Below are positions 19,203 through 41,050 of a stretch of DNA of 46,359 nt, piece by piece (positions within the stretch are counted from its first letter, which is position 1; each line of letters starts with the position of its first letter). Under the pieces are notes generated by a model. The model saw only the letters and a list, made by a program, of their open reading frames with translations. It did no database searches and was not told the origin of the DNA. The position numbers and the translations under genes were made by a program. Source of the DNA: a virus; the IMG/VR virus record IMGVR_UViG_3300025769_000212, positions 1 to 46,359 of that record. The stretch is one strand, 5' to 3'.

Positions 19203-21932
19203 ATGGGAAGGTTTTATCAGCATACCACGAGTCCCGTAGTTGATTATAGCTACGATATACCTTTTACTGAGCTGTGGAAAGCTTTGGAATACAAGCAAGG
19301 CAGACAAGACGCTGCTTTGCAAAAACTAAGTATTGCAAAAGATAAGCTTACTAATATTGAATATATTCCAGGTTCAAGTGATGAAGAATATTTGAAACAA
19401 AAGCAAGCTGAGTATGATGCTCTTTCTGAGCAAGTATCAGGTATGGATCTAAGTGGTAATCAAGCTGCTTTAAATACTGCTATCTCTGAATTTGCAGATG
19501 ATCCTAAATTGGCTAACGTCCAACGTAATGCTACATTCTTTAAAGAGCAGCAAGACAGAATGCAACAACTTGCTGATTCAGGCATGCTTGACTACAACAA
19601 TCTTCCTGATTGGGCAGGTCAAACTGATTTTGGAAATAATATACTTAGCGAAAGAGTAATGGGTATTGTAGATCCTTATCCTCAAGGAGATGCATATTTT
19701 GCAGGTGTAGATAAAGATGCTGTTGCTCGTAATCCTAGTATACTAGATAATATTTTAAACGAGTCTTTAGATGTTTTTAGAGATAGTGGTGTAATACAAA
19801 ATTATGTACGAACTAAAGGAGGAGACCCAACTGATCCAGTACAAAGACATGCGGCAGCTAGAGAAGTATTAGAAGCTGCAAAGGCTAAGTATCTTAATAA
19901 CTTAGGTATAGACCCAATTACAGGAGAAACTGTTACTTCTGGTCCTACTGATGGTGCTTCGGCTGACCTTACATCTGTAAATTTAATTACTCAAGCGGCA
20001 GACGGAAACGCAGGAACTGTATCTGATAAAGTTCTTGCGGAGGAATTAGGATGGTCTTTCGTAGACGAGCTAGATAGTAAGGGAGACAAAACAGGAAGAA
20101 AACTTGTGACAGTAAATATGTCTAATAGAGAGGCTGTAGCAGGAGAGTCGCAAAATATAAATATTATTGAAAATTTAGATGTAGCAAATCTTAAAAAACT
20201 TGCTGAAAAATTTAATATAAATGCAGAAGAAAAAACTGACGAACAGTTAAGAAAAGATGTTGGAGGATATTTAATAGCACAAAAGTTTTATGATACATCT
20301 ATTTTTAGAGAGCTAGAAAATCCTGAAGATGACGAAGATTATGATGAAATTCTTGCAGGAGTAGATTCTGAAGAAGGAAGAGCAGAGGCAGAAAGAATAA
20401 AAAACAGACCTACAGATGAAGCAAAACTTCAAAAACTTAGAGAAAAAAATGAAGAAGTAACAATAAGAACTGGAGTGTCTCCATTAACTTTTAATCCTGA
20501 CGGAACTTATACAACTAATTATCCTGTAAATGAAAAAAAATATGACGCAGATGGAAATGTAATATCAGATTCTGATTATTTAAGTAGGTTATTTAATATG
20601 GATGTAAAAGGTCCAATTGACGTTCATGTTGCAGGCGGGAATAACTTTGTATATAAAAATGGTAAACCATACATACAAGGATATTATACTTTTGACGAAA
20701 ATAAAGGAGATGAACTATTTGATCCTGAAAGCCCTTTTCCTAGTGTTATAGGTACATTTGGATGGGTAGAAGAATTATCAGACGAATTAGGACTTGTAGA
20801 AAAGGTAAAAGATAAAGGTTACGTTTTCGATGCTGATGATGATAATATCTACCGATTGCCGATTTTAATTCCATTATCTGGACAAGAGTTTAATGATGTA
20901 ATGGAAGGTGTAGACCAAGAGGCGATGGGTCTAGGAGAAAAAGAAATACGAGAAGGAAGAGAATCAAGACAGAGAAAAAGAAAAGATGCTATTAGATCAG
21001 CAGGTAATAATGCTATATTAGAAAATGTATCGGCAGTTAGAGATAATACTAAACAATTAGTAATTAATCATCTTGAAACGCAGGGAATAAATGATTGGCC
21101 TGCAACGAATGCACCAGGTTACGCTAGAAAAGCTAAGTTATTTATGCAAAATAGTGATATGTCTGCTGCTACTAAAAATGAAATAAACTCATTTATAGAA
21201 GCAAATACAGACGCTAATGGAAAACTAACTAGCGATGCAAATGTGGATCAAATGTCAAACTTCTTTACAGAAGTTGCTATTTTTAATCAAAGACTAACTT
21301 CTCAATTAAGCAATCCTAATCTTTCTGAAAATGAAAAGAAAGAGCTTCAAAAAATGTATTCAAATGCTTTTGTAAATAAATTTAATGCACTGACAGGAAA
21401 AGATATTACCTCTGCAACTGCTGAAGATGTAAAATCTTTTGGACTATCTCACACAGGAGGAGGAACATATAGAATAGACGATATAAATACTTTTAAATCA
21501 GGAGTTGCTAGTTGGGCAGACTCTAAAGGGTTACTTAAAATAGATAATAATATAAAAGGCATTTCTTTTAACTCTGATATAACTTCTGCTAAAGATATTT
21601 ATGGGTCAAAAGTATCTTCTCCATATTTAAGTCCTAAAACTGCAAAAGCATTAAAAGATATTGGTACCTTAGCAAGCAGTCCTAAATATGGATTAAAAAT
21701 AGGAGTAAATTCTATGGGTAGACCACAAGCAGTTCAAAATATGCTTTTTGATTCTGCAGACCATGAAGCAGCAAAAACATCTGCACATAGTCAAGGAAGA
21801 GCAATAGATTTTGATGTAACTAGCGGAAGCCAAAAAGAAAAAATTATTCTAATGGCGTTAGATAACTCTGTAGGCACAAAAGGCTATCACAAATACTACC
21901 ATGACGGGCATTTGCACGTAGAGATAAAATAA
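19203..21932 (+). CDS. Virion protein with C-terminal M15-like peptidoglycan peptidase
   Basis: The first ~800 residues are mostly helical and lack a known fold. The start (YDIPFTELWKALEYKQGRQD, then a coiled region ending GMDLSGNQAAL) resembles helical cargo proteins of crAss-like phages. The last ~110 residues carry a zinc peptidase signature, S860-A-H862-S-Q-G-R-A-I-D869, with a closing H903-L-H905-V-E-I. This fits M15-type enzymes that cut peptide bonds in peptidoglycan. Zinc ligands would be H862, D869 and H905. A peptidase domain on a virion protein would open the cell wall during DNA entry. It precedes the giant ejected-protein genes, consistent with that role. No signal peptide is visible. 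Confidence 0.75.
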   Translation: MGRFYQHTTSPVVDYSYDIPFTELWKALEYKQGRQDAALQKLSIAKDKLTNIEYIPGSSDEEYLKQKQAEYDALSEQVSGMDLSGNQAALNTAISEFADDPKLANVQRNATFFKEQQDRMQQLADSGMLDYNNLPDWAGQTDFGNNILSERVMGIVDPYPQGDAYFAGVDKDAVARNPSILDNILNESLDVFRDSGVIQNYVRTKGGDPTDPVQRHAAAREVLEAAKAKYLNNLGIDPITGETVTSGPTDGASADLTSVNLITQAADGNAGTVSDKVLAEELGWSFVDELDSKGDKTGRKLVTVNMSNREAVAGESQNINIIENLDVANLKKLAEKFNINAEEKTDEQLRKDVGGYLIAQKFYDTSIFRELENPEDDEDYDEILAGVDSEEGRAEAERIKNRPTDEAKLQKLREKNEEVTIRTGVSPLTFNPDGTYTTNYPVNEKKYDADGNVISDSDYLSRLFNMDVKGPIDVHVAGGNNFVYKNGKPYIQGYYTFDENKGDELFDPESPFPSVIGTFGWVEELSDELGLVEKVKDKGYVFDADDDNIYRLPILIPLSGQEFNDVMEGVDQEAMGLGEKEIREGRESRQRKRKDAIRSAGNNAILENVSAVRDNTKQLVINHLETQGINDWPATNAPGYARKAKLFMQNSDMSAATKNEINSFIEANTDANGKLTSDANVDQMSNFFTEVAIFNQRLTSQLSNPNLSENEKKELQKMYSNAFVNKFNALTGKDITSATAEDVKSFGLSHTGGGTYRIDDINTFKSGVASWADSKGLLKIDNNIKGISFNSDITSAKDIYGSKVSSPYLSPKTAKALKDIGTLASSPKYGLKIGVNSMGRPQAVQNMLFDSADHEAAKTSAHSQGRAIDFDVTSGSQKEKIILMALDNSVGTKGYHKYYHDGHLHVEIK

Positions 21933-21951
21933 TACTTACATATATTAAAAC

Positions 21952-24900
21952 ATGGCTGAAAGATATCGTCCTATAACTCAATATGATGAACAATTTGAGG
22001 ATAAAGAAGTAGAACAATCTGAAAAGAATCGTGATAATATTGAGTTATTTGAGCAATCTACGTCTTTTGATCCTGCAGATTTATTATTGTTATCTAAAGA
22101 AGAAGCTAAAGCTACTTTAGATGCAGAACGTGCTGCAAAAGACCCACAAGCATTTGCTTCTGTAGAAAGCAGCAAAGAGGGCTTGGCATTAGCCGAAGGA
22201 AAGACACCAGGAGGAAATCTTTTAGGGCACGGAAGGCAACGAATTGTTTACAATGTTCAGGATATAATGAATCCTGAAATAGATAAAGACGGGTCTTTGG
22301 CTGCATCTATAGGTCTACCAAGAGATATTCGTAAAAATTGGAATGTTTTAACGCATGCTATTGATACTATTCGTACAGAAAAGCTAAAAGGTCAAAATCT
22401 AGAAAGCTCTATTACGATAAAAGAAATACGACAAAAAGCTGCTAATCAAGAAAGAGAATTAACTGAAGATGAAATAGAAGAGGTAGCAGAACTTGAGGCA
22501 GATATTCAAGAAAATTTAGAGGGAATAGAAAGTAATGAAGCTCAAAATAAAGATAGAGAAAGAATAATTGGTGAGTATTGGCTTAATCAATTAGAAGAAG
22601 ATAAGCAAAGAGGGGGAGGATTTTTTGGACTAAATAGTATATCAGAATTAGCAGATAGTTTAGGAGGCAGTTATTCTGAAATTACAACTATGGCTCAAAC
22701 ATATGCAGCAGGTTATGCATTTAGAACGGGGCTAAGGTATGCAGCAGGTGCGGCTGCTTCTTATACTTTGGGCACAGGCTCATCAGGATGGTGGGGACCC
22801 CAAGCTATTGCAGGAGCCGCATTAACTTTAGGAGGATTTGCCTGGGGTGCAATTTCTCAATATAATCAGCGATCTGCAGAATCATACGCAGAAATGTATG
22901 GAGCATATGATTCTAAAGTTGCAGAAGATATAAATCATTTTAGGCTAGTAAATGGCAGAGAGCCTAACGAAGAAGAGATAGCAAAAATAAAAAGTGCTGC
23001 AGAATATGGTATACAAGATGTATACGAACAAAATATGGCACTTCTTACAGGAGATGCTATAGAAATGGCTTTAGCATTTGTACCCTGGTGGAATAAACTT
23101 AGAGCAATAGGTACAGGAGTTTCAAATCCATATTTAAGAAAAGCTGCACAAGCAGGTGTTGGGGGAGCTTTTATGGTAGGCGGAGGTATTACTGAGCAGA
23201 TGGAAGAAGGCTATCAGCACTTAATACAAGAGAATTACCAAGATGGTGAATATGGAGAAGAAGGATTTTGGAGAGCAGTCGGTAATAGTATAGGTACTTA
23301 TGGCGAAACAGCCAAAGGAGTAGCATTACATGCATTGACGGGGCTATTTGATTATAGAGCTATTGGAACCAGGACAGCTTCTTCAGGATTTAGAGCTGCT
23401 GCAAATTCAGGTATGGCCCTTGGTTTAGCAATGGGTGGAGGACATGCTGCTGCAGGTAAGGTTATTCAAAAAGGTACAGACAAATATAACATGCAAAGAT
23501 ATGGCGCAGATGCCGATCTTATAATGGGACAGTTTGGCCCACAAGCAGTTGAAGATAAAGTAATTGCTGAAGAACAAAGAGTAGCGAGGCTAAAATGGTT
23601 ATTTGAAAAAACAAAAGAAGGAAAAGGTAATTTTCTAGATAAACAAGGAGTTAGAAGACTAGCAAAAGCTTATCAAACACTTAAACAAATTGATGAGTCA
23701 ATATTTGAAGGCGTAGATGAAAAAGAAATGCTGCAGTCTTTTGCTGCTGCAGAACATTTTTCAGATCTATTAAGTGAAGAGAAATTTTCTGACCTTACAG
23801 AACCAGGAGCTGAAAATGCTTTCATACAGCTTATGAGATTCTCGGAAGTTGCGAGAGAACAAAAAACAAAACTAGGCGAGGCTACCACAGCGTTACAAGA
23901 AGAAATAGACGGAATAACAGAGACAGATCTTATTGCTTATGATGATGAGCAAAAAGATAATGCAAGACGTGCTATGATTCTTAAGTCTAAACTAGGGACA
24001 TTAAATGCTCTTATAAAATCCCAAGAAAATATTGAATTTATAGACGATAAGAATAAGCGTCTAAATTTGATGGTTAAAGCTATAGATTTATCATTGCTTA
24101 AACAAGAGCAAAAAGCTTTGCAAAAAGAGTATGATAGTTTAATTTCAGAATCAGGATTATCTAAAAAAGATATAAGAAAAAAAGATAATATTCAAGGCGC
24201 ATATCACCAAGTTGTTACCCATTCTCAAAGTGGAAAAATAGCAAATTTTCTTTCTAATGATATGTTACAGTCCCCTAACGGAAAGGCACTAGAAAATCAT
24301 GCTGCAGTTCAAGACTTCAAGAATAATATAGAAGAAGTCGTAGAAAATGCGGAGGAGAAGAAGAAAGAAGAGAAAGAAGAGCAGGAAAAGATAGTGACCC
24401 CAGAGGGATCAAATGAATTAAAAAACGGGGATGAGGCCTATTATGGAGGTAAGAAGGGACGATATAAAGAAATAAATGGAAAACATTATTTTATACCTGA
24501 GGAGCTTGATAAATTAAATTATAGTGATAGTAATTTATTAAATCATCCTGAGTTAGTTGAAATCAATGGGCCTCAAGATCTGTCTACTAAAAAGACAAAA
24601 GAAAAAGTAGAGTCTGAAACTAAAACAGAAGTTAAAAAAACAAAAGAAAAGAACGAAGCTTCTGAAGACGAACAAGATAGTACTCTTGAAAATGTAGAAG
24701 AGAAACAAGAAGAAACAAATGAGGAAGCAAATGAAGGGCTAGAAGCTACAGAAGATGAAGTTACAGAAGATGAAGAATCTAATAGTGATATCGTAGAAGG
24801 AGATAGTGCTTCTAATGACCCAAGTTTAAAGCTTACTACCAATAAAGCAAGAGAGTTTTCTAGGTATATTTTATCTAAAATCAGAAATATATTTATAGAC

Positions 24901-27900
24901 AAATCTATTAATGTAGCTATAAGATTAAACCCTTCTGCATATAGAAGTTTAAATACAACTGCAAAAGAACTTAAAGATCTTGCAGAAGCATTAACTACTT
25001 CTAATGCTCTTACAGAAAGACAACAAACTCTTTTAGATTTAATAGCAAAGAAAGCAGATTCTCTTTTATATCTAGAAGCTAATCCAAATGCAAAGGCAGA
25101 TTTTATACCTCCTACTAACGTAGGCAATAAGAATCTAATACTTTCAAATTATATAAAAATATTATCTCAAGTAGTAGAAAATCGTGCTAACAAAAAAGAT
25201 TCTTATGTAGCGGTTACAAATCCTTCATACGGATACAATAATGTCCCAGGCCTAAAAAATAGTGTACAGTCATTATTTACTGGAAACCAAGAGATTCAGA
25301 TCGGTATAAGTAACGGTAATACTATTGTAAGAGGAAATGACTCTATCAAAGCTTTACGTTCAGGCGTTAAAGGAAGAATCTACGCTGTAGTTAACGGTAT
25401 AACGGTTAAACTAAATCATAGAAATCTTAACGAACAAGAAGCTGAAATTCTATTTGAGTTGTTGTCTCTGAGACTACAAGGCCAAGGAGGACAACAATAT
25501 CAAGACAGTGGATTAACTGTACTAGAGTATATAAACTTATTGGTTCCTACGTATTCTGCAGGAAAAGCTAAAAAACTTACTAATACTACACACTCTTTAT
25601 TTCTAGGAAACAATTCTATACAATTTGGAGATAAAAAAGACCAAGTTCTTACTAAAGATAATATAGAATCGCAAAAAGAGAATTTCTTAGCCTGGGCACA
25701 AGCAAATAAAAAGAGGCGTATCCAAGGAAAGGCTTTAGGAAAAAATATGTTTGAAAATCTTGGCATTAAAGACAGAGAAAAAATAGTATTCCTAGGGCAA
25801 GAGTATACTAAAGACTCTAAATATGATGATATTCTTTATGCAGGAGAAGACGCTTCAAATCATGTTATATCTACTGACGTAAGGATAGATGAGAATGGAA
25901 GTCCTATTAGCTTAAAATACGCAGGAGTAGATTCTAAAGTAACAACAGAGGAGAAAAAGGAAGACGAAGAGCAAGAAGAGGGACAAGACGAGACAGGAAC
26001 TCTTTTTATGGATACAACTGTAGACCCAAACGCTGAAAAAGGAGAAAGAGTAAACCAAGAAGAAGCTAAAAAGTGGCTACTTAGAACATTAGGGCCGTCA
26101 ATTCCTGTTGAATTTACACCTGTTCTTATAAGAATGGCAAATATGGATGGATTTTCATATGGAAAATTCCATGCTGCTATGATTACGCTTTCTATGAAAG
26201 CACCTGCAGGAGTTGAATATCACGAAGCATATCATGCTGTAGAAGAACTATTCTTAACAGATAAAGAAATACAGTCTCTTCTTGAAGAAGGAAGAAAGAA
26301 ATACCCTAAGCCATCTGAAACTGTAATTGCAAGTTTTCTAAAGAAGTACCCAGGAATAAGTAGAAATACTGCAGAACGTATTTATTATTCAGAAGTACGT
26401 GCTGAAGATTACAGAATGTACGAGCTAGGCGCAAAAGATGCCAGCTTGGGCACAAAGACTTTGAGGTGGTTTAAAATGCTTAAAGGTCTTGTTACTTACA
26501 TCTTTACTAATAAGATGACTGCAGATTTATTGTTTCATAGAATATCAAGTGGTTTCTACGCTAAAAAAGGTCCTAGACCAGATAAAATGGCTATGTGGAA
26601 AAGGAATGATATGACAATGGCTTTAGATAGTGAAACTAAAAATCCTATTCCTGAAAAAACTGTAAAAAACACAGCTAAATTTTTAATAACAAAAATTATA
26701 AATCTTCCCGTAAAAGACGGAGGTATGGGAGGATATATTAATATAAATAGTGTAACAGATTTTAACTTAGACGAAAAACAATTAAAAGAGTTTTTAAATA
26801 GTGTAAAAAACCAACTAAGAACTAGTAAAATAATTCCTGAAAAAGATAAAGCATACTATATTGAAAATATAGATTCAATTATAGATCTTTTACTTGAATC
26901 AACTCCAGAACAAAAAGCTTTACTAGAACAAGCTGGACGAGAATATGAACTTGCTTTACAAAAAGCTGAATTAGAAGAAGACGAAAAAGAAGCAATTGCT
27001 ATTACAAAAAAAGCAAGAAGAGACTTTAAACGTGCTCAATTACAAGCTAGACCGACACTTGTAAAAGAGATGATTAAAGAGCTAATGCTTATAGGGATAG
27101 AAGAGAGAACGAAATTAGAAACCAAGAAGGAGGAACAAACTGAGGCTCAAGAAAGAGAGGCGGAAGAGCGAGATGAGCAAAACAAAGATGTTGTAGCGGC
27201 TACAAAGCATTCTTACGAATCAAGCAATAAAGACAATGCTACTGTCAATACTAAAATGGTATTGAGCTTTTTATATAAAAAGAAGTTTACAAAAAAGAGA
27301 GGAATTACTTTTGAGCGAGATTTATATACAGGTATTCCAATGCCTGCAGATTTTAGTTCTGTGTGGAATACATTAGAAGAAGAGCTTGCAAATATTGTAC
27401 AATACGCTAAACAAGGAAAAGATGGAGTAGAGTATGTTTTTGTAGCAGATCAAATGCGTAAAAGGATTAAAGAGTTAACTAAAAAAGATCCTACGTTTGG
27501 GCAGGTTACAGCTATTTTAGATCAACTTAATCAAAATGAACAGATTCAATTTTTTGAAGCCTTCTCTAAATCTTCTAACAACTTCTTACAATCACAAAAA
27601 CAAAATAGTACTAAGGAAGACGAATTTACTAAGAAATATTTCTTCTTTAATCCTCTTAAGAATAGCAAAAAATTTAGAGTATTTGAAAATTGGTTAGAAA
27701 ACATTAAAAATGTTAAATTATATAATGAAAATACAAGTGAAAAAGAAAGACAAATACATGCTCAAAAAATAATAAAAGCTTGGAATAGTCTTTATACAGA
27801 TCTTTTTGACTCTTTGTATGAAGAAAAAACATATTTTAATGTAAAAGAAGATTCAGAAAAAATAGAAAGACTTTCTAAAGCATTAAATACAATTGGAATT

Positions 27901-30900
27901 AATATTGATTCTAATGCTTTATTTAGTTTATTTAATTCTGAAAATACTTTAAAACAAAATCGTAAACTTTTAGTAGATATAAATAGATTATTTACTTCAG
28001 ATAATGTAAAGTACTCTCCAGCAACAATTGCGCAAGGAGAAGGAGAGTTTAATTATGATGAGCTAAATCCAATAAAAGGAGAAAAAAGAATAGTTTTAAA
28101 ATTAGCACAAGAAGCTTCTAGGTTTAACAAAGATTATGGACAAAATACTATTGTTGGTGCTACAGGCTCTTCATATTGGGGATTCTCTCCAAACCATTTC
28201 TTAAAAAAGAGACTTAATCAGTTTAAAAGCAATGCTGCTTATTATGTAAGTAATTTACGAGAGTCTTTATTCCATAAAGATTCTTTATTACTTGATTATT
28301 TAGCATTAGAAGAAGCAGAAGTTGAAGCTAGAATATTCAGTGGCTTTAAAATACAAGGAGCAAAAGAAGGAAAAGATTATACAGATCTTACTGCAGCAGA
28401 AGAAAGGTCTTTAAGGATAAATATGGGTATAAATGATATTTTTATTCCTATGACTCCTGCAGATAAAGGGTCTTGGAATCTTATAACAGGATTCCAAGCT
28501 GTTACTATAGGAGACCTTAAAGAAGGATTTGAGTATAATAAAGAAACAGATACATATATTTTACCTGAAAAAGTAAAAAAGATATTTTCTAGATATGCTA
28601 TTACAGAATTAAAGCGAATTGCTCAAACACAAGTAGCATTGTTTGGGGAAAATCCTTTACCTGATGAAAAATTAGTACAACATTACCATTATAGAAAACT
28701 GAATAAAGATGGTACTCCAAATAGAGAAACTGGAAACGCTTTAAAATCTCAAATTTTTCCAAGCTTTAATGACAAAGAAGTATTAGAAAAAATGGGCATT
28801 TTAAATAAAGATGGAACCATTGTACCTACAGATCAATTAATGCAAAATGAGGAGTTTAATAAAGTAATTGATAATGCACTAAATTCTTTAATAAAGACAG
28901 AAGTAGAAGCAGCTATAAAAGAAGAAATAATTACAACTACTGAATCAGGTGATATTTCTAGTTTAGGAGAAATTGATACTGATATGGGAGTTAAAGTTGT
29001 AGGAATAGTAGGTAGTACAGATAAAGCAGTGCGAATGATGATGACAAAGTATGCGATTTCTGGGACTATTGCCAATATAGAAACGCTTAAAATGTTTTCA
29101 GGTGACCCTGCTTTTTATAAGTCTATGCCTGACCTAAGCAAAAGAATTCCAGGAATCATTGCTCCAGGTAAAGATCTTATTCTTTTAAGTCCTGATGAAG
29201 TATTTTATAGAGCGGCAGTTTTACAAGATGTTGAAACTGGCGTATCAGAAGAAATGCGAAAAGAATATGCTAATAACTTAAGAAAAGAAGGGTACACAGA
29301 AGAAGAGATAGACAATATTCTAGCACCATATGATGACTATAGTGTAACCGATGCACAAGGTTGGATAACATTAGATAGATGGAGATTTCTTAATGAAAGG
29401 CTAGGAAGATTTGATTCTGAGTCTAAAGAACATGTAGCAGCATTTAACAGACTTAAAGAGGGGAAAGGCACTAAAGAAGATATAAAGTTTGTACAAGCAA
29501 TGCCTATGAAAGGTATGCACTTTGAACTTAGAGATGAGGGTAATCTAAAGGTGCCTACCTATGTAAAATACTCACAAGCAGTATTAATTCCGCAATTTAC
29601 AGAGGGCCGAGAGCTTAATAATCTACTAAAGGCAATGATCGAACAAAAAGTAGATGAAGTTATTGTGGATAGTGGCGTAAAAGCAGGAGCACTTTCTCCT
29701 ATTGATATTACAGGGGTTAATACTAGCGAACTAGTTTCCTCTGATAAGATCAATTTTAATGTTATGACTCTTAGAAATGAGTATTGGAAATTGCAGCAAG
29801 ATCTTAGCCCGCATGAAAAAGGAGGAGAGCAGCTAGAAGGGTCTCAAATAAAGAAAAATATACTTGCAAATATTTTTCAAAATGAAATGTACGCTCCTGA
29901 TATGTCAGGCCATGAGCTTATACGTCAAATGCATGATGTAGATAGACGACTATCAGATCTTGGCAAAAAAGAACTATTTGATGATTTTGGAATTGAAGTA
30001 ATAAATGGACTTCCATCAATAGTAAATTTTGAAAAACTTCAAAGAAGATTAATTGAAGAATTTGAAACAGGTAGCAGTAAGGATAAAACAACTAAAAAGC
30101 TTATTGCTTCTTTAGAATTAAATAGTACTAAAACTGGATTTGCAGTTCCTTTAGATGAAAATGCATTTGCAAATCAGATAAATAGTGCAATCGGATCTTT
30201 TATTACAAAGAGAACTGTTAAGCAAAAAATATCAGGAGGCACTTATGTTCAAATGAGTCCTTTTGGAGAGCAAAGAACTAAAAGATACAGCTCTTTAAGT
30301 GAGGCAGAAAGAAATGAAATAGATAAAAGAATTAATAAAAAAGCTCTTAGTCCTGCTCGTAAAAAAGAAAAAGGAAAAACTAAAAGAGTTCAGATATTAT
30401 TGCCAAATTGGTTTAAAGACCTTGTACCAGGCAATGAAAGTATGAGTGCTGAGGAAATTGGAAAGTATGTAAAAGACAACCGATTACTTAATGGTATTGC
30501 GTATCGTATCCCTAATCAAGGCATGAGTTCTATTGATGCGTTTGAAGTCGTAGGATTTTTGCCAGAATCTATGGCCGATACAGTTATTGCATATGATGAG
30601 TTAACTGCTAAAACAGGATCTGACTTTGACATTGACAAAATGTTTATTATGCTTCCTGAATATGGGATAGATAGAAAAAATAATAGATATTATTATATAG
30701 ATCCTAAAAAATATCTAAATAAAGATGGTACTTGGAATGCAGAAAGCTCAAAATTGAGTGATTATAAAAAAAGACAAGTACTTAAAAATAGAAAGTTAGA
30801 ATTATACGGAATAACAATAGCTCATCCAAGTGCTTTTTCACAAGTAATTACTCCTTTAGATTCTATTACGCATAAATATAATGCTACTAAGAAAAGGTAT

Positions 30901-33624
30901 CTTCAAGCTAAAGCACGTATAAAGCTAGAAAATCCTTCTGCATTTACAGAAATTGAAAATCTTCTAACTAAAATTGAAGAAAAAGGGTCTGCAGAAAACA
31001 TAAATAACTTTATTGGTAAAGCTGATGAGGTTCTTTCTGCAACAAAAGACTTGGAATTCTTTTCTCCAAATTATCAATTTGAAACTAAGCAACGATTTAT
31101 TGGAGGTAAATTTGGTGTAGGACAAACTGCAAGACATCTTGTAGATCATAGTATTTCACAATGGGTATTAGATAAAGAAGGTCAGCCTTATAGGTTAACA
31201 ACCTATGTAGGTATGGGTAATGTTTATGAAATAACTAATAGTGAAGGTGAAGTTATAAGAACAGAATCTTCATTAGCAGGTGCAAAAGGAGAGGCAGGAA
31301 ATCTTATCTCTAATACATTATCAGGAAGATTGAATGCGTATGTAGATATTGCAAAAGACCCTTATATATTCTACCTTAATAATAATTTTATTACAGCTAA
31401 TACGGTATTTATGCTAGACAGGTTGGGAGTAGATCCTACCTGGACAGACTTCTTTATATCACAACCTTCAATTGAAAAATTTGTAGAAGAAAAAATCAGA
31501 TACGATTCTGAAGACAGAAAAAATGCTGTAGATGGAGAAGGTAGAGAATTAAATCCAATGCAGGCAGTTGCATATAGTTTAGGGTTTAGTATAGAAGAGC
31601 TTAAAGAAATGCAAAATGAAATCTTTATTGACTATGAAGTTAGTATAGAAGAGTTGCAAAATAATCTAGACAGTACTAAAGAGTCTTTACCAAGAGAGCA
31701 ACTTGCTCTTTTAATTAAATATGATAAGCTTTCAAAATTTGCAAGCGAGCTAAATAAAGCTGTCTCAGCTTCTAAAGCAGATACAGAAGGTGCTTCAGGT
31801 GGTATTTATGAAGTAATTGTCTCAAAAAGAAATAAAGAAAACCTTTCTCAAAGCGATAAAATAAATGGATTTGATGAAAGATTTGAAGGTACCATGTTGG
31901 GCAAATATTTTGAAAACTCCATTGAATTAATGGACCAGCTTTTCCAAAATAAATTTGCAGTAACTACAAATGCATTTGTAGAAGTATTTAATAAACTTAC
32001 ACTACAGACAGGAATAGATCCTTATAAAGATTCTGCTACACTTAGAAAAATTACAGAACATTTCTATGGATTGTATATGGCAGATCAGTTGCGTAAAGGC
32101 AAAAAAGAAGATGGCACTCCTTTTTATGATAGCAAAACTACTCCTAGATTATTTTACGGAGAAAATAGTTTAGCAGAGCGTCTTAAAAAGTATCAAAAAG
32201 AAGGATCAATTATAGAAAATAATAGTCTTATTAAATATCTTACTCCTAAAACAGGTAACACTGCAGCAGACCCTTCTTTTATAACAACTACACGATCTGC
32301 AGTTCAAGATTCTGCAGATCTTAATGAACTTATAGATTCTTGGCAAGAGCTGCTTGTTCATCCTGATGCAGAAGTACGTTCTTTTGCAGAAGATCTAAGT
32401 GTATATTCTTTTATTACTACTGGTAATACAAGTACAATATTTGGATTTTCTGAACTTATTCCACTTGATTTTGAAAATAAACTTTTCAATAGAATAAAAT
32501 ACCAAACTGCGGCAGTAATGCCTAAAGCTCCTCTTGAAAATTCAGAATATTTTGGTGAAGAGCATATTGAAACTTTTGTAAGAAATAATATAGATTTTCC
32601 AGGCCTTGTTCCTACGGCAGGTCAGGCTAAAACTAAATGGAAAAGCCGAAAATCAATGGGAGTGCCAAGCCCTAAAGTTTCTGAAAAATTTCCTAAATAT
32701 GGATTTTTTAGTTCAAATCCGAATTTAAAATTACCAGATGGTCAATACGGATTTAAAAAATATGCAAAGCTTAAAAACTCAGAAGGGAATACAGTTTTAT
32801 ATACTTTAGTAGGAGTTTTTCAAACTGAATATACAGGAACAGATGGTAAACAAAAAACATTTAAAGCTCCTGTGTATTCGTATCTGCCAAGCTTAGGATA
32901 TAATAGAGCGGGTAAAAAAGTAGTAGAGTTTAGAAATATAAGATCTGCAATTACTGAAAATCTAATTAGAAATGAAAAAGGCGAGTTAATAACTAGGCAA
33001 GATGCTTTACAACAAGTCAGTGAGTATATAGACGTTACTTTTTCAGAATTAATTATGATAAATAACGCTTTTAAGCAAATAGAAGAAAAAGTACCTGCTG
33101 ATTACTCTGCTTCATTAGAGCTTGTAGATGATTTAATGAATTTAACTGAGCTTGAAGTATATACTCAAAATGGGGTTAATACATTAAGAACTAATAAAGC
33201 AAAAGCAAACGAACATTTTGGAAACCCTTGGAGTCAAGCAGGTTATGCAGGAACACTTAAAACAGACACTGTACAACGTGCAGTAGATAATTATAAAGAC
33301 TGGCTGCTAGGTGTAAGATTTCAAGATGTAAAACCTGCACAACGAGATTGGATTTTAAATCAAATCAAAAAAGGTAGGCTTGATGGTCAAAAACTTCTTT
33401 ACCCTTCAAAACTGATAAACAGACGAATAGCAAAAGGATATTCTCATGCACAGGCCTTAGCAGAAGTTATTGAAGAGATTGCTGCGAATGGTATGCCTGA
33501 AGTAATAACAGAAAGACCTGGTATTCAAGAAAGAATGACAGCAGAGCTTCCTAATAGAGCGGATAATAACGAATTGAATAGCCTTCAAAGAAAGGCTCTT
33601 GAAGACCAAAATAATTGTAAATAA
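21952..33624 (+). CDS. Giant virion RNA polymerase fusion protein with zincin-like domain
   Basis: The 3,890-residue protein joins several parts. Residues ~245-510 hold three Gly/Ala-rich hydrophobic stretches (about 251-305, 394-423 and 482-507), as in phage ejection proteins. Acidic linkers lie near 793-812, 875-957, 1,332-1,366 and 1,703-1,746. A zincin motif H1424-E-A-Y-H1428 is followed by E1481/E1485 as possible third ligand. The RNA polymerase core includes GDPAFYK and KR near 2,380, DSGVKAG at 2,573-2,579, and D2891-F-D2893-I-D2895, the DxDxD catalytic motif of crAss-like virion RNA polymerases. These enzymes are packaged and injected to transcribe early phage genes. I recall the phi14:2 enzyme as about 2,200 residues, so this one appears to be a fusion. 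The stop overlaps the next start (TAATG). Confidence 0.88.
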   Translation: MAERYRPITQYDEQFEDKEVEQSEKNRDNIELFEQSTSFDPADLLLLSKEEAKATLDAERAAKDPQAFASVESSKEGLALAEGKTPGGNLLGHGRQRIVYNVQDIMNPEIDKDGSLAASIGLPRDIRKNWNVLTHAIDTIRTEKLKGQNLESSITIKEIRQKAANQERELTEDEIEEVAELEADIQENLEGIESNEAQNKDRERIIGEYWLNQLEEDKQRGGGFFGLNSISELADSLGGSYSEITTMAQTYAAGYAFRTGLRYAAGAAASYTLGTGSSGWWGPQAIAGAALTLGGFAWGAISQYNQRSAESYAEMYGAYDSKVAEDINHFRLVNGREPNEEEIAKIKSAAEYGIQDVYEQNMALLTGDAIEMALAFVPWWNKLRAIGTGVSNPYLRKAAQAGVGGAFMVGGGITEQMEEGYQHLIQENYQDGEYGEEGFWRAVGNSIGTYGETAKGVALHALTGLFDYRAIGTRTASSGFRAAANSGMALGLAMGGGHAAAGKVIQKGTDKYNMQRYGADADLIMGQFGPQAVEDKVIAEEQRVARLKWLFEKTKEGKGNFLDKQGVRRLAKAYQTLKQIDESIFEGVDEKEMLQSFAAAEHFSDLLSEEKFSDLTEPGAENAFIQLMRFSEVAREQKTKLGEATTALQEEIDGITETDLIAYDDEQKDNARRAMILKSKLGTLNALIKSQENIEFIDDKNKRLNLMVKAIDLSLLKQEQKALQKEYDSLISESGLSKKDIRKKDNIQGAYHQVVTHSQSGKIANFLSNDMLQSPNGKALENHAAVQDFKNNIEEVVENAEEKKKEEKEEQEKIVTPEGSNELKNGDEAYYGGKKGRYKEINGKHYFIPEELDKLNYSDSNLLNHPELVEINGPQDLSTKKTKEKVESETKTEVKKTKEKNEASEDEQDSTLENVEEKQEETNEEANEGLEATEDEVTEDEESNSDIVEGDSASNDPSLKLTTNKAREFSRYILSKIRNIFIDKSINVAIRLNPSAYRSLNTTAKELKDLAEALTTSNALTERQQTLLDLIAKKADSLLYLEANPNAKADFIPPTNVGNKNLILSNYIKILSQVVENRANKKDSYVAVTNPSYGYNNVPGLKNSVQSLFTGNQEIQIGISNGNTIVRGNDSIKALRSGVKGRIYAVVNGITVKLNHRNLNEQEAEILFELLSLRLQGQGGQQYQDSGLTVLEYINLLVPTYSAGKAKKLTNTTHSLFLGNNSIQFGDKKDQVLTKDNIESQKENFLAWAQANKKRRIQGKALGKNMFENLGIKDREKIVFLGQEYTKDSKYDDILYAGEDASNHVISTDVRIDENGSPISLKYAGVDSKVTTEEKKEDEEQEEGQDETGTLFMDTTVDPNAEKGERVNQEEAKKWLLRTLGPSIPVEFTPVLIRMANMDGFSYGKFHAAMITLSMKAPAGVEYHEAYHAVEELFLTDKEIQSLLEEGRKKYPKPSETVIASFLKKYPGISRNTAERIYYSEVRAEDYRMYELGAKDASLGTKTLRWFKMLKGLVTYIFTNKMTADLLFHRISSGFYAKKGPRPDKMAMWKRNDMTMALDSETKNPIPEKTVKNTAKFLITKIINLPVKDGGMGGYININSVTDFNLDEKQLKEFLNSVKNQLRTSKIIPEKDKAYYIENIDSIIDLLLESTPEQKALLEQAGREYELALQKAELEEDEKEAIAITKKARRDFKRAQLQARPTLVKEMIKELMLIGIEERTKLETKKEEQTEAQEREAEERDEQNKDVVAATKHSYESSNKDNATVNTKMVLSFLYKKKFTKKRGITFERDLYTGIPMPADFSSVWNTLEEELANIVQYAKQGKDGVEYVFVADQMRKRIKELTKKDPTFGQVTAILDQLNQNEQIQFFEAFSKSSNNFLQSQKQNSTKEDEFTKKYFFFNPLKNSKKFRVFENWLENIKNVKLYNENTSEKERQIHAQKIIKAWNSLYTDLFDSLYEEKTYFNVKEDSEKIERLSKALNTIGINIDSNALFSLFNSENTLKQNRKLLVDINRLFTSDNVKYSPATIAQGEGEFNYDELNPIKGEKRIVLKLAQEASRFNKDYGQNTIVGATGSSYWGFSPNHFLKKRLNQFKSNAAYYVSNLRESLFHKDSLLLDYLALEEAEVEARIFSGFKIQGAKEGKDYTDLTAAEERSLRINMGINDIFIPMTPADKGSWNLITGFQAVTIGDLKEGFEYNKETDTYILPEKVKKIFSRYAITELKRIAQTQVALFGENPLPDEKLVQHYHYRKLNKDGTPNRETGNALKSQIFPSFNDKEVLEKMGILNKDGTIVPTDQLMQNEEFNKVIDNALNSLIKTEVEAAIKEEIITTTESGDISSLGEIDTDMGVKVVGIVGSTDKAVRMMMTKYAISGTIANIETLKMFSGDPAFYKSMPDLSKRIPGIIAPGKDLILLSPDEVFYRAAVLQDVETGVSEEMRKEYANNLRKEGYTEEEIDNILAPYDDYSVTDAQGWITLDRWRFLNERLGRFDSESKEHVAAFNRLKEGKGTKEDIKFVQAMPMKGMHFELRDEGNLKVPTYVKYSQAVLIPQFTEGRELNNLLKAMIEQKVDEVIVDSGVKAGALSPIDITGVNTSELVSSDKINFNVMTLRNEYWKLQQDLSPHEKGGEQLEGSQIKKNILANIFQNEMYAPDMSGHELIRQMHDVDRRLSDLGKKELFDDFGIEVINGLPSIVNFEKLQRRLIEEFETGSSKDKTTKKLIASLELNSTKTGFAVPLDENAFANQINSAIGSFITKRTVKQKISGGTYVQMSPFGEQRTKRYSSLSEAERNEIDKRINKKALSPARKKEKGKTKRVQILLPNWFKDLVPGNESMSAEEIGKYVKDNRLLNGIAYRIPNQGMSSIDAFEVVGFLPESMADTVIAYDELTAKTGSDFDIDKMFIMLPEYGIDRKNNRYYYIDPKKYLNKDGTWNAESSKLSDYKKRQVLKNRKLELYGITIAHPSAFSQVITPLDSITHKYNATKKRYLQAKARIKLENPSAFTEIENLLTKIEEKGSAENINNFIGKADEVLSATKDLEFFSPNYQFETKQRFIGGKFGVGQTARHLVDHSISQWVLDKEGQPYRLTTYVGMGNVYEITNSEGEVIRTESSLAGAKGEAGNLISNTLSGRLNAYVDIAKDPYIFYLNNNFITANTVFMLDRLGVDPTWTDFFISQPSIEKFVEEKIRYDSEDRKNAVDGEGRELNPMQAVAYSLGFSIEELKEMQNEIFIDYEVSIEELQNNLDSTKESLPREQLALLIKYDKLSKFASELNKAVSASKADTEGASGGIYEVIVSKRNKENLSQSDKINGFDERFEGTMLGKYFENSIELMDQLFQNKFAVTTNAFVEVFNKLTLQTGIDPYKDSATLRKITEHFYGLYMADQLRKGKKEDGTPFYDSKTTPRLFYGENSLAERLKKYQKEGSIIENNSLIKYLTPKTGNTAADPSFITTTRSAVQDSADLNELIDSWQELLVHPDAEVRSFAEDLSVYSFITTGNTSTIFGFSELIPLDFENKLFNRIKYQTAAVMPKAPLENSEYFGEEHIETFVRNNIDFPGLVPTAGQAKTKWKSRKSMGVPSPKVSEKFPKYGFFSSNPNLKLPDGQYGFKKYAKLKNSEGNTVLYTLVGVFQTEYTGTDGKQKTFKAPVYSYLPSLGYNRAGKKVVEFRNIRSAITENLIRNEKGELITRQDALQQVSEYIDVTFSELIMINNAFKQIEEKVPADYSASLELVDDLMNLTELEVYTQNGVNTLRTNKAKANEHFGNPWSQAGYAGTLKTDTVQRAVDNYKDWLLGVRFQDVKPAQRDWILNQIKKGRLDGQKLLYPSKLINRRIAKGYSHAQALAEVIEEIAANGMPEVITERPGIQERMTAELPNRADNNELNSLQRKALEDQNNCK

Positions 33625-36600: not shown

Positions 36601-37127
36601 AATTGAATAAATTTGAAAAAGAAAACTCTGTAGGAGTTACTTTTAATTTTGAGTCTGAAACTAAGCCTAATAATATTGCATATGGTACCTGGGAACAAGC
36701 ATTTGATGCTCAAATTGAAAATGGTACTGCAAATCTCACTAAATTTGGAAATATTCCAATTGAAAGTGGGGTAGAGACTACTAGCTATGAAGCGTTTTAC
36801 GCAAGCTTAGACTATAAAAGAATAGAAGAAAAAGCCAAAAGCATTATTGCTAAACAAGGAATCGGAAAAGGAAAGCCTTTAAGAAGATTTGGTAAAGTGT
36901 TCTATGTAAAGAAAGATAAAGGCATGATGGCTTATAATGAAAATAATGCTAGAAAATTCGTAAGAATTACAAATCAAACATATTTTAACGGAGATCCCGT
37001 TTTAAGAATCATAACTGATAGTTATTCTAAAAGAAGAATTTCTATAAAACCTGAAAATTATACAGGGGGCCAATTAAATCTTTTTGATTCTGATAATGAT
37101 ACTAACCTACAACAAAACTGTAAATGA
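33624..37127 (+). CDS. Large RNA polymerase-associated cargo protein
   Basis: The 1,167-residue product begins with MASCINTNSSEFKSLASKVD and FPTKEEI, a start I associate with large cargo proteins encoded beside crAss-like virion RNA polymerase. It is mostly charged and helical. A segment at 727-740 (LRTLPEEYSHMLVELLG) looks like a zincin helix with the first His changed: E732-E-Y-S-H736 where HExxH is expected. It is probably inactive. The C-terminus carries Q1150-L-N-L-F1154, a match to the beta sliding clamp-binding motif, and ends in NCK, as does the upstream protein. Its gene overlaps both neighbours, so the three are probably made together. A role in the injected transcription complex is likely. 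Confidence 0.7.
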   Translation: MASCINTNSSEFKSLASKVDMNKDTLLANVALWEVRNKELDRFPTKEEIESFDRKMKKLANLERLAMAEKTHDQKVNARLEVMLEGLGINIQKDFDDLQGSPGFENTIRPNATSAFDVLQKYLSIKENITNKDMALQTANAIYTFLGRKSKFSGDIWANIHKWEKYDEIYAKYANREDIEEYLITPIENAKIRDNMAHRMAIVHFIADLLLHAIDNNGFKLDALQENVDIDKQYFESRGFKNDLYEPSYLKKQIKALWNWIMETFFKKRRFDVYTSTELKDLAMEIIDDVYKGDFYNFFRAYAQNSEGEIVDRKGVKYEQKFYQETLDKEPFAASIIKFLVNNPFINFKLSGSQTVRKFGTLFRPLEENLHDIDGVIPMSQFKKEENALNFLAWIQTRGLMLTQEQKRDTFMKEVIPFIEKQSWYQNVKSKYPDFEITSVFIGKDHKKGESITITGDMPVPGKFDEEGNPEKIVLDFFLRTKEGRYPEIFDNYWKDWKQIFEAKLNMGRAKDIADLLFFVPFKTDKYKFTNKGFRFYTFAENKANEVSLKDNPTPIKDIPSYIPEREVEVDPYAQLKDTTLEEAAHQSMLADGAQDITEIHSGFTLSSQAEKQLKEKGWSQEEIDEFNLYIAANRERFRNESVAFIAAVRLQEYLEQNAENIKEVEEMATAADKMLDRYLMNWLEEYGVTVKPSTLQEIKERYGMDAIAITDVVNRVIAFSNEDINLRTLPEEYSHMLVELLGTDSDIIKPLFNNIESWGKYNAIFNLYRTQKAYQNSDGSPNVSKIKKEAIGKLLSEAIVIQNTNRSVPKGRFLRNAYEVLQSIIEFFNTGNPRNVTSIANKIARQVLFDNKEWANKYIENKTQREYTKNPNIESQESVKTLDAIRSIVNKLGAKLTNSLNTANNGSIFKSGTTAASSLDFSIPESSFKPTNEKELTNWVNTTLKKAVPNFTATEIIKIGETFRVSGIVTDIESVANAFNNHKGSVAERINKLNKFEKENSVGVTFNFESETKPNNIAYGTWEQAFDAQIENGTANLTKFGNIPIESGVETTSYEAFYASLDYKRIEEKAKSIIAKQGIGKGKPLRRFGKVFYVKKDKGMMAYNENNARKFVRITNQTYFNGDPVLRIITDSYSKRRISIKPENYTGGQLNLFDSDNDTNLQQNCK

Positions 37128-40100
37128 GTTCTTGTACATTTGAATTTACTACTTCTGATGGAGTAACAAGAGAAAGTAAGCTTTTTGAAGACCTTAAAAA
37201 GAAACTTGTAAATTTTCCTGGTAAAGCAGAGGAAATTATAAAGTTAGTTCATGGAGGGTCCATAGATTTTGTAATGCTTTATGGAGATTGGCAAAAAGAT
37301 CCTGAAGGATTTTTAGGAAAACATAAGCCAAACTTTAAAAAAGACGCTCTTTATAGCTATTCAAAACCAGGTACGCTAGGCCTTACAGAAGACCAGTTAA
37401 TTTATGGAGAACCACATGTAGATGTGGTAATGGACTACTGGGATAGAATTTTAAAAGAACGATATGATTTCAATACAGGACAGTTCAGACCTGTTGGCTC
37501 TGCTACAGAGGCATTACTTTTAAATATTGCATCTAAACTAGAGTTAGTTATAGATAGGCTTAAAAGAGATAGAGACCAAACAAGAAGAAGAGGGAAAGTA
37601 AGAACAGAAAAAGAAGAAATAGAGAAATCATTAAATACTGAGTCTAGTTTTGAGGCAGCAAAAGGATTGCTTCAATATGCGCTAAATACTGCTAAAATTG
37701 TAGCAGATATCAGAAGAGAAATTCAGGACCTTTCTACAAGACTTGGAGAAGAATTAGATCCTAAAGATAGTAGCGTAGCTGACTCTGCTAGAAAAGTATT
37801 TGAGTATTTAAGTGCATATAATGAAACTTCAGAACTTCTTGCTATTGTTAGACGAGAAGAATTAGACTTTCCAGCAGATCCTAAAACTGGAAAAGATAGT
37901 CCAAGCAGATCTAAAAACATTAATCTGGTAACAGCAGGACTTTCTCCAGAAGAAAGAAAACAACTTCTTGAAGCTTTGGAGCTAATAGAAGCAGAAAGAG
38001 CTAGTATTGAAAAAATGTATGAAGGAATGGCAGAAGAATTTGTATCTGCTAAATTCAATACCAAAGAAGAAGAAATAATTCAATGGCATACTGAAAAATT
38101 TGTAAGAGATTTCAAAAAACAATATCCTAAAAGAAAAAAAGGAAAAGATAAAAATGGAAAAGTAATACCCGCAGAGACAGAAGAGGAGTATGAAAAAAGA
38201 ATGAATGAATACGTAGAAGAAAAGCTTGAAGGAGTCAGGGATTTTATAAAAAAAAGGTCTGAATCCATATTTAGAAATCTTTTACGTGCTTCCAATAACG
38301 ACCTTTCTGGATTTCATAGATGGTTTATGTCTGCCCTTAATGCGCCTTCTCCATTGCTAAGAGCTATTCAAAAAGAAATATCTGTTGTAGAAGACAATAT
38401 CCGAAGAGAATGGATGGAAGATGTAGCTGACTTTGATGATGCTTACAGAGAATTGTTAAAATATGAAGAAAAACAAGGGAATACAAAAGGAAAACTAGGA
38501 GACTTCTGGGATTGGCTTATGGATACAGATGAAAATGGTGTTCCTACAGGCTATTTTGTAACAGAATATTCTGGAGAATGGTTTTTAGCAATAGAAGCTG
38601 CTAAAAACTCAATCTTTTCAGATGATAATTTAACATATTCTGAAAAAAATACAAAATGGAAACAATGGAGAGAAGGGGTTGACCATAGAGGATTTAAAGT
38701 TGAAGGGCATATTAAATTTGTTTTTAAAGTTCCAGGAGATAATAAGGATTATCAAAAAGACTATATAATCAAAAAACAAAATGCAGATCGAACTAAAGAC
38801 TACGGAGATTTAAATGCTTTTATGGACGATATGCGTCAAAGGCATAGAGAAGCAGGTAGTTTGTTTGAAGTTCCTAATCCTGCTGCGTTTAAAAAAGAAG
38901 AACTTGAAAGGTTTAAAAGCAAGAAGTACGAAGAATTGATGGCATTGCCTGCAGATCATCCGCGTAGAAAGTACTATAAAAAATATATGCAGGCTTCTGC
39001 TTTCAATGATTCGAGACTACCATCTTCTTTTAGACTGTTGTACAAAATGCCAAGCATGCGTAAAAGTCTTGCAGAAAGATTCCATGATATTAATCCTGTT
39101 CCGTGGAAATTTTTCGGCACAGGTGTCGGCAGTTTCTATAATGAAATTATAAAACCTTGGGCCAAAGAAACTACAGATTATGTTCCAGGTGAAGTTTCAG
39201 AAAGAGGAGAAGAAGTTTTTGACGATGACAAAAAAGTAGTAAATGTAGATAGTAAGCATAAACAAAGGCAGCACGTACCTATTCATTATAGAGGAGAAAT
39301 AGATATAGAAGATCTTACAAGAGATTTGCACGGATCTTTATTAAAGAATACATATGTATCTAGTGCTTATGGTTACATGAGTGACCTGCTTCCTTATATA
39401 GAAATGATGCTTTATTTTATGGACCCTAAGAATCATAAAACATTTCAAAATGAAGGAGGATCAAAATTATTTGGAAAAGGTTCTGTAGGAAGACTGCTTA
39501 AAAAAGATGCAACTCATACATTTGAAGCGGCTAGAGATCTTATAGAGGCCAGAATGTACGGCATAACTTTAGTAGATCCAGGTTGGGAAGTGGGTCCTGC
39601 TGGTAGAAAAATAAGAGTTACAAAATTAGTGGGGCTATTTCAAAGTTATATTTCAACTACTCTATTAGCAGGTAACTATCATTCTTCTTGGGCAAACGCT
39701 AATCTTGGGCACACAATGACTGCAATCGAAGCGGTAGGAGCCGAATTTTTTGGAGTAAAAGCATTGGCGGGAGCCAATAAAGCCTATATGATGGACTCTG
39801 GCAATATAATGAGAGACCTTTCAGAAAGAAAAGATAGATATTCTACTGTAAATTTATTTAATGAAATATTTGATCCCTTAAATAATTTTTATCACGGTAA
39901 ATATAGCTATGCACATAATAGCAAACTTGCAAACTTTATGAAAAACACAAGTTTGCACTTTTTAAATAACTCTGTAGAGCATCATGTACAAAGCGTTTCA
40001 TTATTAGCATATTTAAAATCTATTTATGTAAAAGACAAAGATGGATCTTATATAAATAAAAAAGGTGAAAAAGTAGAAAGTCGATCTGAAGCAATGACGC

Positions 40101-41050
40101 TATTTGATGCATATAAGAAAAAAGATGGCAAATTAAATCTTAATGACAAAGTACATTTTGTAGAAAGAAGAGTAGGAGAATTATATATTACAGAAAATTA
40201 TAATGATAAAGCATCTAAAGATGTAGTCAATGGTAAAATAACACTTGTAATTCAAAAGATAAATGAAGAACTACACGGAGCTTATTCTATTAGAAATCAT
40301 GCTCCTGTTCAAAGAACAATCTTTGGATCTATGTTATTTCAACTTAAAAAGTTCTTCTTCCCTGGGTTATGGAGAAGATGGGGAGCTATAGATTCTGTAC
40401 TTATGAATTACTTCCCTGGTATAGGACTTTATGCACAAGGTAAATTGCAGCAGGATAGCTATATAGAAGATGAAGGAAAATCTTATGATAGATATTATGA
40501 TCCTATGACAGGCACTGTAAGAGTTTTAGGTACTTGGGCACACACTTTAAAATTCTTTTTTAAATCAATGACAGATCTTAAGAGATTAAAATGGCAAGTG
40601 GCTAGTGAAAATTGGGCAGAATTAACAAGAAATGAAAAAGCTGCTATTAAAAAAACAGTTACAGAATTTGCATTGATTTTTACCCTTCCTTTAATTGCAG
40701 GAGCATTTAAAGCTGCAGCAGAGGACGATGATGATGATAGTGATTACTATACATATAGTTTTCTTGCTTATCGTTTATATAGTGAATTAGTATTATATAC
40801 TAATCCTAAAGAAGCAATGAGAATCCTTCAAAATCCAACAGTTACTATATCTTTTATAGAAAGAGTAATAAAGTTTGGTAGCCAGCTTACAAGTGATGTG
40901 TGGGGATTAGAACTAGAACAATATGAGTCAGGAAGCAGGAAAGGAGATTATAAAGTAATGAAGAACTTTTATGATCTTGTACCTTTTTATAAGCATGCAA
41001 CTCGTCACAAGATTATGTCTGACATCATAAACTACTACTATCGTGATTAG
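37124..41050 (+). CDS. Large RNA polymerase-associated cargo protein with C-terminal membrane segment
   Basis: This 1,308-residue protein starts MSSC, echoing the MASC start of the gene before it. The first ~460 residues are rich in Lys and Glu with coiled helices (KKRSESIFRNLLRASNNDLS). The end resembles, as I recall it, the final large cargo protein of crAss-like phages: a basic aromatic patch (LFQLKKFFFPGLWRRWGAID), a hydrophobic helix (ALIFTLPLIAGAFKAAAE) directly followed by EDDDDDSDYY, and FLAYRLYSELVLYTNPKEAM. No catalytic motif is visible. It is the last + strand gene and is followed by the terminator region. It is likely an ejected protein that works with the polymerase or the entry channel. 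Confidence 0.7.
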   Translation: MSSCTFEFTTSDGVTRESKLFEDLKKKLVNFPGKAEEIIKLVHGGSIDFVMLYGDWQKDPEGFLGKHKPNFKKDALYSYSKPGTLGLTEDQLIYGEPHVDVVMDYWDRILKERYDFNTGQFRPVGSATEALLLNIASKLELVIDRLKRDRDQTRRRGKVRTEKEEIEKSLNTESSFEAAKGLLQYALNTAKIVADIRREIQDLSTRLGEELDPKDSSVADSARKVFEYLSAYNETSELLAIVRREELDFPADPKTGKDSPSRSKNINLVTAGLSPEERKQLLEALELIEAERASIEKMYEGMAEEFVSAKFNTKEEEIIQWHTEKFVRDFKKQYPKRKKGKDKNGKVIPAETEEEYEKRMNEYVEEKLEGVRDFIKKRSESIFRNLLRASNNDLSGFHRWFMSALNAPSPLLRAIQKEISVVEDNIRREWMEDVADFDDAYRELLKYEEKQGNTKGKLGDFWDWLMDTDENGVPTGYFVTEYSGEWFLAIEAAKNSIFSDDNLTYSEKNTKWKQWREGVDHRGFKVEGHIKFVFKVPGDNKDYQKDYIIKKQNADRTKDYGDLNAFMDDMRQRHREAGSLFEVPNPAAFKKEELERFKSKKYEELMALPADHPRRKYYKKYMQASAFNDSRLPSSFRLLYKMPSMRKSLAERFHDINPVPWKFFGTGVGSFYNEIIKPWAKETTDYVPGEVSERGEEVFDDDKKVVNVDSKHKQRQHVPIHYRGEIDIEDLTRDLHGSLLKNTYVSSAYGYMSDLLPYIEMMLYFMDPKNHKTFQNEGGSKLFGKGSVGRLLKKDATHTFEAARDLIEARMYGITLVDPGWEVGPAGRKIRVTKLVGLFQSYISTTLLAGNYHSSWANANLGHTMTAIEAVGAEFFGVKALAGANKAYMMDSGNIMRDLSERKDRYSTVNLFNEIFDPLNNFYHGKYSYAHNSKLANFMKNTSLHFLNNSVEHHVQSVSLLAYLKSIYVKDKDGSYINKKGEKVESRSEAMTLFDAYKKKDGKLNLNDKVHFVERRVGELYITENYNDKASKDVVNGKITLVIQKINEELHGAYSIRNHAPVQRTIFGSMLFQLKKFFFPGLWRRWGAIDSVLMNYFPGIGLYAQGKLQQDSYIEDEGKSYDRYYDPMTGTVRVLGTWAHTLKFFFKSMTDLKRLKWQVASENWAELTRNEKAAIKKTVTEFALIFTLPLIAGAFKAAAEDDDDDSDYYTYSFLAYRLYSELVLYTNPKEAMRILQNPTVTISFIERVIKFGSQLTSDVWGLELEQYESGSRKGDYKVMKNFYDLVPFYKHATRHKIMSDIINYYYRD

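Follow-up and report, generated by a model that had tools for sequence, protein, structure and literature searches.

A 3,890-residue virion RNA polymerase fusion of a crAss-like phage joins a putative ejection segment, a zincin-type domain and a two-barrel polymerase

Giant RNA polymerases (RNAPs) have been called a hallmark of crAss-like phages, in which RNAP genes encode products of up to ~6,000 aa (review, PMC10136315), and the work on phage P23-45 also describes crAss-like phages as having virion RNA polymerases (vRNAPs) fused to large proteins (PMC10770324). Mass spectrometry identified gp47, gp49 and gp50 as components of the crAss001 (Kehishuvirus) virion, and it was proposed that they unfold partially during extrusion (PMC10172136), while the annotation of g065-g067 in the Cellulophaga phage phi14:2 is based on MS/MS. 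For the vRNAP of phage N4, a beads-on-a-string passage through a channel of ~35 A has been proposed (PMC12633501). Moreover, N4 vRNAPs are reported to be always fused to a zincin-like metallopeptidase, and in polyvalent proteins, which are giant injected proteins, a chain-processing role was suggested for such metallopeptidases in 2017 (PMC5512222).

The window analyzed here, i.e., the whole stretch of 46,359 bases, an uncultivated virus record, carries a single ATG-started open reading frame (ORF) of 3,890 aa without any internal stop codon. At the base composition of the window, the probability of an open run this long arising by chance is approximately 1e-141. The ORF is located within the following block of genes (L numbers denote loci of relatives):

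9155-15451, plus strand: crassvirus muzzle protein, 2,098 aa (PF25731, E=5e-57; phrog_15100, E=5e-152)
19203-21932, plus strand: upstream cargo-type gene, 909 aa, with a weakly M15 peptidase-like C-terminus
21952-33624, plus strand: giant fused virion RNA polymerase ORF, 3,890 aa
33624-37127, plus strand: gene of 1,167 aa, whose residues 563-1167 are joined to the polymerase C-terminus in L006/L007/L008 (comparison with relatives)
37124-41050, plus strand: gene of 1,308 aa, homologue of phi14:2 g065 ('RNA polymerase associated protein'), joined to the giant chain in L027 and L061

As the muzzle protein and the cargo/RNAP block occur in a known order, namely that of phi14:2 and cr118_1, the window can be assigned to a Crassvirales-type phage. 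The structural/cargo block is flanked by homologues of a DNA repair exonuclease (3017-4285, plus strand) and of a ribonucleotide reductase (41473-43329, minus strand). None of PHROGs, Pfam, NCBIfam and PADLOC provided a usable family assignment for the giant protein as such; its parts were assigned as follows:

22630-23511, plus strand: Gly/Ala-rich conserved helical domain (residues 227-520), putative ejection or membrane-active part, with profile matches in 72 ORFs
24202-25131, plus strand: highly charged, poorly conserved linker (residues 751-1060), from composition and identity profile
25180-26031, plus strand: domain conserved in near relatives only (residues 1077-1360; L006/L007/L008/L023)
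26032-26586, plus strand: zincin-type metallopeptidase domain (residues 1361-1545), from an alignment of 57 relatives, an AlphaFold model (pLDDT 86) and fold matches
26221-26235, plus strand: HEAYH, with H1424 and H1428 as predicted Zn ligands and E1425 as predicted general base, invariant in 57 sequences
26392-26394, plus strand: E1481, predicted third Zn ligand, invariant in 57 sequences
26602-27171, plus strand: charged linker between zincin and polymerase (residues 1551-1740), gap-rich in relatives
27184-32697, plus strand: two-barrel crAss-type RNA polymerase, homologue of phi14:2 gp66 (residues 1745-3582; PDB 6vr4_A, E=1e-101)
30622-30636, plus strand: DFDID, with the catalytic Mg-binding aspartates D2891, D2893 and D2895, aligned with the phi14:2 gp66 triad

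Judged by sequence homology, the chain corresponds to phi14:2 g067 plus g066, or to crAss001 gp47 plus gp50, in a single gene. The N-terminal domain and the polymerase both have homologues in phi14:2, including an identical DFDID, and g065 lies downstream in the same order as in the window; however, phi14:2 uses two genes, and its g067 has no detectable zincin, an HExxH being located in g065 instead. In crAss001, gp47 contains the homologous N-terminal domain and zincin and gp50 the homologous polymerase, but here the two are separate genes on opposite strands. The fused arrangement itself is found in cr118_1 (QOR58373.1, 4,946 aa), cr4_1 (YP_010112556.1, 4,491 aa) and cr6_1 (YP_010112711.1, 4,400 aa), which have zincin and polymerase in one ORF and the same operon order, although their chains are longer and distant in sequence. 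In cr4_1 and cr6_1 (L003 and L018), an uninterrupted giant ORF is obtained only if TAG is translated as an amino acid, which fits the amber recoding known from some crAss-like phages.

The initial annotation, which was made from the DNA letters alone, had proposed an uninterrupted giant frame composed of ejection, zincin and RNAP parts, with a zincin motif at residues 1424-1428 and a DFDID motif at residues 2891-2895. The frame and both motifs are indeed present, and of the three parts the RNAP is now firmly assigned, as its sequence matches that of a polymerase of solved structure, the zincin is well supported by its ligands and fold, and the ejection part is assigned by inference. Each motif occurs only once in the chain, HExxH as HEAYH and DxDxD as DFDID; nevertheless, the motifs by themselves are weak evidence, since both arise in shuffled chains (HExxH in 4% and DFDID in 0.1% of them), and it is homology that secures them.

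For the polymerase, the PDB match listed above, 6vr4, is the virion RNA polymerase of phi14:2. A global alignment with phi14:2 gp66 (29% identity over 1,763 positions) pairs the DFDID at residues 2891-2895 with that of phi14:2, so that the motif represents the DFDxD catalytic loop of the second double-psi barrel, with its three aspartates matching the phi14:2 triad. The region on which the assignment as a double-psi barrel polymerase had been staked thus belongs to a two-barrel enzyme, and the size initially given for the phi14:2 polymerase (about 2,200 residues) is close to the actual 2,180 aa of g066. A simple pattern search found a DFDID, DFDVD, DYDID or DLDID loop in 78 of 81 polymerase cores, and one of the three exceptions is a core cut by a split gene. 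Moreover, no match to the T7-type single-subunit polymerase family was obtained for the giant chain in Pfam, PHROGs or NCBIfam, which, together with the match to 6vr4, argues that it is not a vRNAP of the N4 type. The N4 vRNAP (Schitoviridae, ~3,500 aa) is comparable in being a giant packaged polymerase with a zincin-like metallopeptidase that exits via a narrow tail, but it is a T7-type single-subunit enzyme, unrelated to the two-barrel crAss type, and its zincin lies in the C-terminal region. In P23-45 gp96 (5,002 aa), a two-barrel vRNAP with a DxDxD motif is joined, as here, to a giant protein that is ejected, but in that case the latter is the tape measure of a long-tailed phage and the polymerase is N-terminal.

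A break within the polymerase itself was observed in L065, where two ORFs (L065:4475-14218 and L065:14220-19244) separate the upstream conserved core from the DFDxD part. Each of the two ORFs has ends that look natural, and L065 possibly encodes a crAss vRNAP made of two chains, reminiscent of a division into beta and beta-prime subunits; a similar break in L031 is frameshift-like.

The zincin domain is homologous to the C-terminal portion of crAss proteins labelled 'RNA-polymerase subunit', e.g., crAss001 gp47. In the alignment of 57 relatives, a G, a Y, H1424, E1425, H1428 and E1481 are invariant, and on the basis of these conserved ligands the domain is predicted to be an active metallopeptidase. 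In the AlphaFold model, HExxH lies in one helix (82-94) and E1481 in another (132-156, model numbering). When this model was compared with solved structures, the top matches were nearly all zincins (PPEP, lethal-factor-type, IrrE/PprI), with middling scores (Z up to 5.9). Foldseek against viral models gave strong matches to giant virion proteins of crAss-like phages (E down to 1e-8) and weaker ones to phage proteins named 'large polyvalent protein', while sequence profile searches of Pfam and PDB with the domain returned matches at chance level only. The model therefore supports, but does not prove, a zincin fold for residues 1361-1545.

The N-terminal part had been described as carrying Gly/Ala-rich hydrophobic segments at residues ~245-510. 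The enrichment stands, with 23-28% Gly/Ala over residues 151-600, but hydrophobicity is only weak: Kyte-Doolittle means over 19 residues peak at 1.19, no window of that length reaches 1.6, and no classical transmembrane helix is indicated. Within residues 227-520, positions E310, E314, N361, E415, E419, Q422, E479, G487 and G491 are near-invariant. A search of IMG/VR with the N-terminal half as a single protein found nothing, and relatives were obtained only by an iterative profile of residues 227-520. The profile retrieved 72 ORFs, each of which is either the zincin/RNAP ORF or the one immediately upstream, with no matches elsewhere in the loci, and homologous regions lie in phi14:2 g067 (residues 164-413) and crAss001 gp47 (residues 180-523). 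The AlphaFold model of the domain is all-helical and of low confidence (pLDDT 57), Foldseek gave no reliable match with it, and Pfam and PDB sequence profile searches returned chance-level matches only.

We then considered how common such fusions are. Sampling with the zincin profile, for which 80 IMG/VR loci were fetched and pooled with those from earlier searches to 100 loci (redundancy kept), gave zincin and polymerase in one ORF in 77 of them, including cases with a break before the zincin. After polymerase profiles independent of the zincin were added and duplicates removed, the combined set comprised 152 distinct crAss-type RNAP loci: 81 fused (78 having a zincin, 3 lacking it) and 71 split (21 and 50, respectively). 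The initial statement that other crAss-like phages split these parts among several genes is thus true of some, but many have them fused (81/152), including every one of the closest relatives of the window (L006/L007/L008, L023, L123, L184). Nor is the chain as exceptional as had been implied: fusions of 3,000-5,600 aa are usual in several crAss-like lineages and have already been published, so that the 3,890-aa protein illustrates well a known class of giant crAss vRNAP fusions.

The gene break precedes the zincin in some phages and follows it in others. In split genomes it also falls at or near the zincin-polymerase linker, the split RNAP ORFs beginning ~200-220 aa ahead of homology, and the stretch at residues ~1551-1750 has the lowest conservation and the greatest length variation of the whole chain. 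As the position of the break varies and neighbouring genes are fused in L006/L007/L008, L027 and L061, these phages share one conserved module order (helical N-terminal part, zincin, polymerase, C-terminal part, g065-like protein) whose division into genes differs in position from phage to phage. A dependence of fusion on the zincin was tested as well. In the raw counts the two are strongly associated, with a zincin in 78/81 fused loci and none in 50/71 split loci, but phylogenetically independent pairs on the tree gave this no significant support, and the idea was dropped.

Given its homology to the virion proteins of crAss001 and phi14:2, the giant protein is expected to be virion cargo delivered likewise, and we consider it very probable that the ORF encodes a giant vRNAP cargo protein of a crAss-like phage, for which we propose the following course. 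By analogy with its relatives, the protein would be synthesized late in infection and packaged close to the portal. It would then probably be expelled before the DNA through tail and muzzle, partly unfolded and with loosely linked domains, the N-terminal helical Gly/Ala-rich domain probably aiding entry into, or crossing of, the envelope. Once inside, the two-barrel polymerase would likely refold and transcribe early genes, as suggested by the homology of its catalytic core to phi14:2 gp66, for which activity is known. The zincin might finally cut the linker at residues ~1551-1740 and free the polymerase in the host, a tentative step, or else cut other proteins. That passage of so large a chain through a tail would require unfolding or cleavage, as the initial annotation argued, is plausible by comparison with described systems, and published work leans to partial unfolding or beads-on-a-string passage.

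In an uncultivated virus record, separate genes could conceivably have been united by an assembly error, a concern raised at the outset. However, independent contigs from other samples span all the joints in the same chain and carry it at full length (4,392 aa in L007/L008, 4,177 aa in L023 and 4,208 aa in L184), the named phages described above share the fused arrangement, and GC3 is even (0.14-0.22) from end to end of the frame, which is what a single gene predicts. An assembly error is therefore out, its probability being negligible, and the ORF is an intact, natural in-frame joining of a helical putative ejection segment, a zincin-type domain and a virion RNA polymerase. The role of the first of these segments is putative, and it was assigned because conserved Gly/Ala-rich helices occur in a gene whose counterparts in relatives encode virion cargo. 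It is conceivable, to a lesser degree, that the N-terminal half serves mainly in packaging or scaffolding, as a structural segment required to bring the polymerase into the capsid, rather than as part of an ejection channel: it is helical, charged and Gly/Ala-rich, the candidates for channel formation in crAss001 are gp45 and gp46, with gp47 classed as RNAP-associated (PMC10172136), and in N4 the metallopeptidase-bearing region is required for encapsidation. On the other hand, the conserved Gly/Ala-rich helices and an EGxEEGxQ-like motif give the impression of membrane-active ejection proteins, in line with the ejection role.

The target of the zincin can be read in different ways. The full version of self-cleavage, in which the chain is packed whole and its own zincin cuts at ~1551-1740 after entry, activating a polymerase that is inactive in transit, a solution reached independently in crAss-like and N4-like phages, seems to us unlikely. 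The position of the zincin where the two halves meet, beside the variable linker, and its presence in nearly all fused chains favor it, and they speak against a zincin acting elsewhere; the raw association of fusion with zincin points the same way, but shared ancestry may explain it. However, the ligands are also kept in split forms, with 21 split loci having the zincin, and the N4 vRNAP, zincin-bearing too, is reported to be packaged unprocessed. The active site is in fact equally conserved where the zincin lies at the end of a distinct gene that is read from the other strand (crAss001 gp47, cr112_1), and on the tree the fusion state (at least 18 changes) and zincin presence (7 changes) are largely uncoupled. 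These observations suit an effector or maturation protease acting on other host or virion proteins, with fusion providing equal dosage and joint delivery, to which we give slightly less than an even chance.

An ORF of 3,890 residues that appears bizarre is thus real, with its parts now assigned, and it touches on the question of zincin-timed release of virion polymerases. Should the zincin process the chain, this would bear on how protein cargo of megadalton scale is delivered via a narrow tail and then reactivated, and would parallel the unrelated N4 vRNAP.

Other HExxH domains were also observed. The g065-type gene downstream of the polymerase often carries a second one, weakly related to the main zincin (hhalign 69%), e.g., in L002:21043-25308 (g065), L009-L012, L102, L122 and others; it was detected in 35 of 55 loci without the main zincin versus 26 of 69 with it, and this downstream-gene type is absent from the window. 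Two of the three fused chains lacking the standard zincin have a different HExxH upstream of the polymerase (L128:956-12763, HEFGH at 1663; L169:1388-12703, HEITH at 864). Finally, versions of the giant protein in named genomes are annotated as 'DNA helicase', 'hypothetical protein' or 'nuclear pore complex protein-like protein'; the first and last of these labels, found on the giant vRNAP fusions at MT774379.1 16381-31221 and NC_055894.1 68246-81448, are likely misannotations.
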